Below are positions 13,647 through 53,199 of a stretch of DNA of 64,000 nucleotides, in pieces; positions within the stretch are counted from its first letter, which is position 1, and each line of letters begins with the position of its first letter. Both the position numbers and the translations under genes were made by a program. This stretch comes from Rubellimicrobium thermophilum DSM 16684 (GTDB lineage Bacteria; Pseudomonadota; Alphaproteobacteria; Rhodobacterales; Rhodobacteraceae): assembly GCF_000442315.1 (NCBI RefSeq), contig NZ_KE557320.1, positions 583,606-647,605 of the forward strand. The letters run 5' to 3'. The notes beneath the pieces are model-generated. The model made no database searches. It was not told the origin of the DNA and saw only the letters and a program-made list of their open reading frames with translations.

Positions 13647-14959
13647 ATGATCCGCCGCTGGCTTCATGACCGCATGCCCCGTTCGCTGCTCGTCCGGGCG
13701 GCGCTGATCCTGCTGCTTCCGCTGGTGCTGCTCCAGATCATCGTCTCCATCGGCTTCGTCCAGCGGTATTACGAGGATGTCACACGCCAGATGACCGCCA
13801 CGCTGGTCCTGGAGCTGGCCTTTCTCTCCGATCTCGCCGCGCGGGCCCCCGATGTCGCGGCCGCACAGGAGAGCGTCCGTTCGGTGGCCGAACCGCTCGG
13901 TCTGGCGGTGACGCTGCCGGCGGCCGACCCCCCGCGCCAGGCCGTGGATCCCTGGGATCTGCAGGGGCAGGCCATGGCCGCCACGCTGCGTGCCGGCCTG
14001 CCGGCCCTGATGGCCGTGGCAAGCAGTCCGCCGCCGGGCGTGTCCGTCTGGCTCGAGACGCCCCACGGCACCCTGCAGGTGGACTTCCCGCGCCGCCGCG
14101 TTTCGGCCGCGGCGCCGCATCAGCTTCTGGTGCTGACGATCGGAACCGGGCTTCTGCTGGCGGCGATCGCCTGGATCTTCCTGCGCAACCAGATGCGCCC
14201 GATCAAACGTCTGGCCGAGGCCGCGACGGCCTATGGCCGGGGACGGATCCTGCCCTTCGTCCCTCCGGGGCGACAGAAGTGCGCGCGGCCGGCGCCGCCT
14301 TCCTGGACATGCGCGCGCGGATCGAACGCCAGACCCAGAGCCGCACGGCCATGCTCGCCGGCATCAGCCATGATCTGCGCACACCGCTGACGCGGCTGAA
14401 GCTCGGTCTGTCGATGATCGAGCACGAGGATATCCCCGACCTGCTCCGCGATGTGGACGCCATGAGCCGGATGGTGGATGGCTTTCTGGACTTCGCCCGA
14501 AGCGAGGCAGAGGACCGGGTCGAGCCCACCGCGCTGGGACCTCTCGTCGCCGAGGTGGTCGAGACCTTCCGCCGTCAGGGACATGATGTGGAACATCCTG
14601 CACCGGATGATCCGGAAGGGCCGCTCCTGGATCTGCGCCCGTTGGCCATCCGCCGCGCGCTCGAGAATCTCCTGGCCAATGCCTGCACCTATGGCAGGCA
14701 TGTGCGAGTGACGCTCTCCTTCGGGGAGAAGGCTGTCCGGATCACGGTGGAGGATGACGGCCCCGGCATTCCCCCCGAACGGCGCGAGGAGGCGATCCGC
14801 CCCTTCGTCCGTCTCGACGATGCCCGCAACCAGGATCGCGCGGGTGTGGGGCTCGGACTGGCCATCGTGGCGGATATCGCGCGCGTTCATGGGGGCGCGC
14901 TGCGGCTGGGCGAAAGCGGGATGGGCGGCCTTCGGGCCGATATCGTCCTGGCGCGTTAG
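13647..14959 (+). CDS. EnvZ-type sensor histidine kinase, with one frameshift
   Basis: About 437 residues after repair. A first membrane span is at residues 13-32 (VRAALILLLPLVLLQIIVS), followed by a periplasmic sensor region, a second span near LLVLTIGTGLLLAAIAWIFL, and a HAMP-like segment RNQMRPIKRLAEAATAYG. Then come the H-box GISHDLRTPLTRLK, N-box NLLANACTYG, G1 VEDDGPGIP and G2 GVGLGLAIV. The frame breaks at the G run 14267-14270; one more G restores PPGATEVRAAGAAFLDM. No response regulator adjoins, so it is an orphan kinase of unknown signal. Its stop overlaps the stop of the convergent sulfotransferase-like gene. Confidence 0.88.
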
Positions 14960-15564
14960 GCCGTCCCCTGTCTGCCCGCCATGGCCCAGACGGCGAATTC
15001 CTGCGGACGGGCCGCGCGCAGCCGCGCCTCGGTTGCCGGGGATAGGGCAATCTCCATCGCGGGCGATTCATTGAGACGCGGCAGATCAAGCCGCAGCCCC
15101 AGCCTTTCGGACAGGAAGGCATGCAGCCGTTCGGGCTCTTCATAGCGGAACAGATGGGTGACGCCCTGCGTGCCGTCCTCGTTGAGGACATAGCGGGCCT
15201 GCTGTCCGACCTGCGCGAAGGGGGCAGGCCGGTCCTTGCAGTATTCCTCCACGAAGGCATCGAAGGTCATGCCTCGCGTGCTGTTGGGCCGGCCGGCGAT
15301 GTCGTCCCTTGTGCGATAGCGGAACCAGCTTCCCAGCCAGCTCACCGGTTCGCGCAGCACGGCAACGGTCTCGAAATCCGAGGCTCCGCCGGCGGCCAGC
15401 AGCGGCTCGATGAAGCGGCGATAGCGATAGAGGGGCGAATGCTTGATCTGCGGCGGGTCGCGCAGCACGAGCGCGGCACGCGGCGCCAGTGCGCCTTCGA
15501 GCGCGGTTGTGCCCGTCTTGGGCACGGCGAGCAGCACCAGCCGCTCCTTCCAGAACACGAGCAC
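14956..15564 (-). CDS. Sulfotransferase-like P-loop protein
   Basis: 202 residues. The start is GTG at 15564 with AGGAGAAG upstream. The N-terminus LVLLAVPKTGTTALEGAL matches the PAPS-binding loop of sulfotransferases (PKxGTT). VAVLREPVSWLGSWFRYR fits the second conserved element, where Arg and Ser contact the 3'-phosphate. Homologs in Rhodobacteraceae are often misnamed gamma-glutamyl kinase. The acceptor is unknown. A perfect CtrA box lies 49 bp upstream of the start, which makes cell-cycle control likely. Confidence 0.7.
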   Translation of the reverse strand: MLVFWKERLVLLAVPKTGTTALEGALAPRAALVLRDPPQIKHSPLYRYRRFIEPLLAAGGASDFETVAVLREPVSWLGSWFRYRTRDDIAGRPNSTRGMTFDAFVEEYCKDRPAPFAQVGQQARYVLNEDGTQGVTHLFRYEEPERLHAFLSERLGLRLDLPRLNESPAMEIALSPATEARLRAARPQEFAVWAMAGRQGTA

Positions 15565-15612
15565 GCGGTCTTCTCCTGCGACAGATTGCTCCCTCCTGCC
15601 GAAGGGGCAGCG

Positions 15613-15628
15613 TTAACCCCGTGTTAAC
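15613..15628 (+). promoter_or_regulatory. Perfect CtrA box
   Basis: TTAA-CCCCGTG-TTAAC matches the CtrA consensus TTAA-N7-TTAAC exactly. It sits between the sulfotransferase-like gene (start 15564, minus) and the recA promoter (-35 at 15664), so it could control either. Confidence 0.6.
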
Positions 15629-15663
15629 CATGCTCTGGCAGGATGCTTCAAGGTCGATTCGTC

Positions 15664-15692
15664 TTGATTTGTTCGCGTTTCGGTCCCATATC
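15664..15692 (+). promoter_or_regulatory. Probable recA promoter
   Basis: TTGATT at 15664-15669, 17 bp, then CATATC at 15687-15692. The -35 is good and the -10 only fair. The SOS box follows 8 bp after the -10, where bound LexA would block RNA polymerase. Confidence 0.45.
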
Positions 15693-15700
15693 GGGGTCTG

Positions 15701-15715
15701 GAACAGATCAGGAAC
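15701..15715 (+). promoter_or_regulatory. SOS (LexA) box of recA
   Basis: GAAC-AGATCAG-GAAC, an exact alphaproteobacterial LexA site (GAAC-N7-GAAC, equal to GTTC-N7-GTTC on the other strand), 50 bp before the recA start. Confidence 0.85.
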
Positions 15716-15765
15716 GAAACGCCTGATTGCCGTCATGGGGGCGGCCGTGCAACAAGGGGCCAGAC

Positions 15766-16848
<1,083 letters not shown>

Positions 16849-47907: not shown

Positions 47908-47923
47908 GTAACGTGTTGTTAAC
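47908..47923 (+). promoter_or_regulatory. CtrA-like box before ctrA
   Basis: GTAA-CGTGTTG-TTAAC, one base from the consensus TTAA-N7-TTAAC, 50 bp before the ctrA start. It fits autoregulation, as known in Caulobacter. Another TTAA lies at 47901. Confidence 0.55.
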
Positions 47924-47972
47924 CTTTTGGCGCTAAGGCTGGCGCAAGGCTCGAAGAACAGGAGAACCTGGG

Positions 47973-53199
<5,227 letters not shown>

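Follow-up and report, generated by a model that had tools for sequence, protein, structure and literature searches.

The recA gene in the 64-kb window (the whole stretch of DNA analysed here) probably has two stacked promoters: a distal CtrA-type promoter (P1) and, closer to the gene, an SOS promoter (P2) under LexA control. The SOS promoter is probably an ordinary one, and the CtrA-type promoter above it is conserved and probably functional. Four features read from sequence support this arrangement: the motifs themselves, their conservation, their geometry, and the loss of the CtrA-type box together with ctrA.

Direct reading of the region 15600-15770, with each element verified by coordinate, placed the recA control elements as listed in Table 1. 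The sequence-only reading had placed TTAA-N7-TTAAC, GAAC-N7-GAAC and the promoter-like pair TTGATT/CATATC upstream of recA; all are present, the last with a spacer of 17 bases. It had missed two elements, the operator O1 and the hexamer CAGGAT. Sequences related to TTGATT/CATATC occur at the equivalent place in most of the relatives displayed, and a strict scan of 15300-16000 for sigma-70 promoters and terminators flagged nothing, TTGATT/CATATC included. LexA-type operators overlap P2, O2 as an exact match and O1 with one mismatch. Farther upstream, a histidine kinase is seemingly split over the overlapping frames 13647-14390 and 14279-14959, with the HisKA and HATPase domains found only in the second; this possibly reflects a frameshift or an assembly error.

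Table 1 Features of the recA and ctrA control regions (window coordinates).
Feature	Position	Strand	Basis
CtrA-type box TTAACCCCGTGTTAAC	15613-15628	+ (also readable on - strand, 15612-15627)	Pattern match and conserved position at recA
-10-like hexamer CAGGAT of proposed CtrA-type promoter P1	15639-15644	+	Offset conserved in relatives
-35-like TTGATT of LexA-controlled promoter P2	15664-15669	+	Sequence
Second LexA-like operator O1, GTTCGCGTTTCGGTC (GTTC-N7-GGTC), within P2 spacer	15671-15685	+	Sequence
-10-like CATATC of P2	15687-15692	+	Sequence
LexA operator O2, GAACAGATCAGGAAC (GAAC-N7-GAAC)	15701-15715	+	Exact match
recA, ATG at 15766; open frame from TTG 15727	15766-16848	+	NCBIfam TIGR02012, 572.6 bits
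Divergent gene, product begins MLVFWK	14956-15564	-	No Pfam or NCBIfam match
CtrA-type box upstream of ctrA, GTAAC-N6-TTAACC	47908-47924	+	Sequence
-10-like AAGGCT upstream of ctrA	47935-47940	+	Starts 27 bases after box start
ctrA, response regulator	47973-48692	+	NCBIfam NF045991, 422.9 bits (cut-off 350)

The box at recA, which reads on both strands as GTTAAC-N5-GTTAAC, is not a chance occurrence. The full TTAA-N7-TTAAC occurs at one place only in the window (shuffle mean 0.00). The genome from which the window comes (3,163,144 bases, 88.85% complete) contains 16 forward and 16 reverse matches to the box pattern, with many sites counted once on each strand, whereas reversing the pattern gave 0 and 1. 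No site in this genome fitted a guessed, longer version of the pattern.

In the comparison across relatives that the sequence-only reading had proposed, the box proved to be conserved at this position, so the refuting outcome named there, lack of conservation, did not occur. Its relaxed form, TAAAC/GTAAC-N6-TTAACC, was matrix-positive at recA in 69 of 80 CtrA-bearing genomes of the family; this second sample comprised the 80 least RecA-similar CtrA-bearing genomes among the matches listed, from 182 such genomes. Removal of two duplicates of first-sample loci left 67 of 78. The first sample, the best 80 relatives among the matches listed and largely the training set of the matrix, gave 72 of 80 recA loci, and 71 on repeat because some loci sit at the threshold. 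The matrix was trained on 66 first-sample rows and scored against per-sequence shuffles (p <= 0.01). It replaced an 8-of-9 rule, which missed clear sites such as GTAAC-N6-TTAAT, and the switch was made after the 8-of-9 results were known. Under that earlier rule, a box match was found in 1 of 29 genomes of other families, with 1.0 expected (30 genomes from 30 families of the same class, a subset of 57, of which 29 were readable). Four first-sample loci (L045, L052, L091 and L116) lacked the box in the profile step and belong to genomes with a ctrA match.

A profile built from 72 non-redundant rows, drawn from the 79 of 87 rows with a box-like match, reads CGTAAAC-N6-TTAACC followed about ten bases on by an A-rich hexamer, with little conserved farther upstream. 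The box columns of this profile are conserved partly through the selection of rows, whereas the flanks and the position were unselected; the reverse-strand locus L120 was left out of the profile rows and included in later counts. The usual left half-site in the family is TAAAC, a departure from TTAAC. Because the left half-site varies, a search requiring both motifs exactly, with the gaps bounded, was too strict; it matched 5 of 147 relatives, the window's own genome among them.

The spacing downstream of the box is constrained as well. Beginning 26 or 27 bases after the start of the box, 66 of the 69 box-bearing CtrA-bearing genomes have a hexamer whose second base is A and whose sixth is T; no other pair of adjacent offsets between 18 and 39 reached more than 10 of 69. 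In the first sample, 73 of 79 rows have this hexamer at one of those two offsets, versus at most 12 elsewhere. A rise in hexamers at offsets 40-44 corresponds to the P2 region. Among 29 oriented boxes in the window's own genome, 11 have the hexamer at those two offsets, recA and comEC included, and no other offset has more than three. Such a fixed distance between box and hexamer fits a promoter that has its -35 region under the box, and passages of one study report activating CtrA sites at the -35 region in C. crescentus (PMC6180460). The spacing between the box and P2 is also narrow, with 48-52 bases from the box start to the TTG of P2 in 60 of the 70 rows in which it was located (9 of 79 rows were unlocated). 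This would suit class I activation, in which box-bound CtrA acts on P2 from a distance and no separate promoter exists. We regard that arrangement as unlikely, since nothing in it would call for the constant placement of a -10-like hexamer relative to the box in 66 of 69 genomes, and since the P2 spacing spreads over five bases, with outlying values between 33 and 74.

Gene assignment, which covered part of the box matches in the genome, placed some CtrA-type boxes upstream of genes in keeping with a CtrA regulon: comEC (Pfam Competence, L009), comF (L281, recognised by eye, with the box form GTAAAC-N6-TTAACC), and a PAS protein (L021) that we read as DivL. Further matches adjoin genes that have no obvious connection, such as a glycosyltransferase (L001). 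A perfect box at L003 (contig 3 of the genome, 1501-1516), one base different from the 16-base recA box, stands upstream of a terminase-led cluster that we read as a gene transfer agent (GTA); the -10-like hexamer is absent at the expected offset there. Some boxes lie within near-identical repeated DNA (L014 and L026, 97% over 382 bases; L011 and L029, 99.7% over 603 bases), as if copied around the genome, and the locus L030 overlaps L029. The sequence GATTC, a GANTC site, occurs close behind the boxes at L006, L011, L014, L016, L022, L026 and L029, near the expected -10. GANTC is the target of CcrM.

The box could alternatively serve the divergent gene and merely adjoin recA, as the sequence-only reading had also considered, labelling that gene sulfotransferase-like. 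The label finds no backing in Pfam or NCBIfam, but the alternative itself is a real one, since the gene is a common neighbour of recA: it adjoins recA in 61 of 80 first-sample and 61 of 80 second-sample loci (detected through tblastn or a permissive N-terminal pattern). The window's box can be read both ways, and in the first sample the box accompanies recA in 59 of the 61 loci with the divergent gene versus 13 of the 19 without it. Congeners point the other way. In five of six, the divergent gene was not found in the stretch examined, although the window's histidine kinase was matched, and all five keep the box, which argues that the box belongs mainly to recA. The box likewise stands without the divergent gene in the 13 first-sample loci and in 16 second-sample loci, the latter being only those pre-picked by a weaker box rule and hence not a rate. 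Moreover, the strong TTAACC half and the -10-like hexamer face recA, and the opposite reading offers no such hexamer. A box that drives the divergent gene is therefore disfavoured, and we consider this explanation improbable.

Scattered losses of ctrA amount to a natural experiment on the CtrA regulon as a whole. Of 198 family genomes, 16 gave no CtrA match at 1e-60. These 16 and the genomes of L085, L089 and L090 (19 in all) were re-searched at 1e-12, and six were set aside: G013, G221 and G264, which hold partial ctrA pieces only, and G015, G040 and G230, which are 82, 74 and 71% complete. In the remaining 13, the best matches were response regulators whose identity did not exceed 36%. Of these genomes, eleven are 91-100% complete and lie scattered over the RecA tree; for the other two, completeness is not stated.

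The box was present at recA in 2 of the 13 CtrA-less genomes (G231 and G248, both well completed) versus 69 of 80 CtrA-bearing ones (Fisher 7e-7, kinship ignored); over all 19, it was present in four, with G013 and G230 added. The LexA operator was kept in 9 of the 13, and among genomes keeping it, the box was found in 1 of 9 CtrA-less versus 64 of 75 CtrA-bearing genomes (Fisher 1.4e-5, kinship ignored). The cruder 8-of-9 rule gave a weaker contrast, 53 of 80 versus 3 of 13 (p 0.005). On the RecA tree, the ctrA-less label of the 13 genomes requires 10 changes against 84 other rows, among which ctrA was checked for seven first-sample loci, and at least 6 of these changes are forced by well-supported branches. 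G265 and G266, for instance, form a group with L048 (98/73), which carries the box. These comparisons suggest that the sampled lineages without CtrA have mostly also lost the CtrA-type box at recA.

AT-richness or genome reduction is frequent among CtrA-less genomes, and of the 11 without the box, 3 also lack the LexA operator, so general decay contributes to box loss. The box was nevertheless found in 20 of 25 of the CtrA-bearing upstream regions of lowest GC (0.37-0.47), and 5 of 13 CtrA-less upstream regions have a GC content below 0.37; low GC accounts for the loss only if it acts below the GC range of the CtrA-bearing sample. The CtrA-less genome G231 (L135, 100% complete) inverts the usual picture, having the box at recA and neither LexA operator.

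The joint loss would also be expected if the box were read by a regulator other than CtrA (CenR, Fnr/Dnr, or an OmpR-type protein) that disappeared along with ctrA, and CtrA-less genomes may have lost further regulators. The cited parts of one study suggest FnrL binding adjacent to recA in R. capsulatus, describe overlapping Crp/Fnr and CtrA control at recA of D. shibae, and indicate that a Dnr/Fnr site can share the TTAAC half (PMC7232146). Against this, what is conserved at recA is a direct repeat in the form typical of CtrA, the same as at ctrA itself, and the CenR motif TGA-N8-TGA, as given for R. sphaeroides in the passage cited, is absent from the box (PMC9275681). CenR itself was ruled out as the reader of the recA box by this motif, TGA being found by eye on neither strand. 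Overall, a reader other than CtrA seems to us quite unlikely.

The LexA operators are more widespread than the box. The O2 form, GAAC-N7-GAAC, is present in 77 of 80 CtrA-bearing recA upstream regions of the family, and the O1 form, GTTC-N7-G[ATG]TC, in 51 of 80. In the window, GAAC-N7-GAAC occurs twice, with 0.87 occurrences expected; this is not significant by count alone, and the operator owes its weight to where it sits and how well it is conserved. Eight Paracoccus loci (L054, L069, L070, L072, L076, L077, L097 and L102) have a CtrA-type box and GAAC-N7-GAAC at recA, with the box placed farther upstream and a spacer devoid of the GTTC operator. The wide distribution of the operators, together with the 11 of 80 CtrA-bearing genomes of the second sample that lack the box, would accord with an ordinary SOS promoter alone, the upstream element being a relic or a product of chance. 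Such an account is very improbable given the conservation of the box, its placement, its joint loss with ctrA, and the chance-level matching in other families.

We therefore return to two stacked promoters and propose a plausible mode of action. At P1, the TTAAC-N6-TTAACC box would cover the -35 region (about -38 to -23 from the predicted start), CAGGAT would serve as the -10 element, and transcription would start near 15651. With the box and hexamer so placed, phosphorylated CtrA would recruit RNA polymerase at P1. P2 would act as the SOS promoter, repressed by LexA at O1, between its -35 and -10 elements, and at O2, just beyond its start. An active CtrA relay would then raise recA alongside GTA, competence, and other CtrA targets, and DNA damage would raise it separately. 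CtrA binding, activity of P1, and any effect of LexA on P1 transcripts are what we infer from the arrangement. Of the earlier proposal that recA is controlled by both the cell cycle and DNA damage, dual control through CtrA and LexA is supported by conservation, placement of the -10 element, and co-loss with ctrA, as far as sequence comparison can tell. For the cell-cycle part, "CtrA regulon" is the safer wording, since the sources, as far as cited, name motility, GTA, competence, and quorum sensing as CtrA targets in this family.

Control of recA by LexA and a lower recA transcript in a D. shibae CtrA-relay mutant are already in print. According to the cited sections, lexA and recA were among the most lowered genes in D. 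shibae lacking chpT, with the drop in recA listed under loss of chpT but not of cckA (PMC7232146), and lexA, recA, and comECFM have been named as CtrA-controlled (in part of PMC8116508). The mostly open-access passages surveyed on CtrA with recA or LexA made no mention of a CtrA site at recA. The stacked promoters would supply a cis-acting explanation for the transcript drop in the D. shibae mutant, if D. shibae has the box. LexA has moreover been reported, in the passages cited, to repress cckA in R. capsulatus (PMC6473078, PMC6363796), which would join gene exchange and damage repair in a loop running from CtrA through RecA, LexA, and CckA back to CtrA. We tentatively entertain a fuller proposal, possible though somewhat short of probable, in which recA belongs directly and ancestrally to the CtrA regulon through a CtrA promoter of its own set on the SOS promoter, this loop is closed, and LexA on O1 and O2 is also able to block transcripts from P1. 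On this fuller proposal, cells making or taking up GTA DNA would raise their recombinase without DNA damage. The stacked promoters make it testable whether a gene-exchange programme can set the level of recombinase independently of damage.

The proximal part of this control region is reminiscent of an alphaproteobacterial SOS promoter. The recA gene of R. sphaeroides reportedly carries two motifs, GTTC-N7-GATC and GAAC-N7-GAAC, in work attributed to Fernandez de Henestrosa in 1998, and we know of no upstream CtrA-type element in that work. Both genes have two LexA-like operators, O1 and O2 here, round one promoter, and the upstream CtrA-type element is the extra feature of the present recA. 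Genes with dual sites offer a second comparison. In D. shibae, binding-site prediction put CtrA and LexA sites together at lexA, Dshi_1127, and others, as in the control region described here, whereas recA was given a LexA site alone, with no CtrA site named in the cited part of that study (PMC6473078). As for CtrA-activated promoters, the quoted sections give the R. capsulatus ctrA promoter site as GTAAC-N6-TTAAC, the same form as the box at ctrA in the window, and the CtrA-bound site at the gafA promoter as TTAAC-N6-GTAAC (PMC6363796). These promoters and that of R. sphaeroides fla2, as far as the cited passages describe them (PMC6363796, PMC6180460), share with P1 a site of the GTAAC/TTAAC-N6-TTAAC type; unlike them, the gene here is recA, and a second, LexA-controlled promoter lies within about 50 bases.
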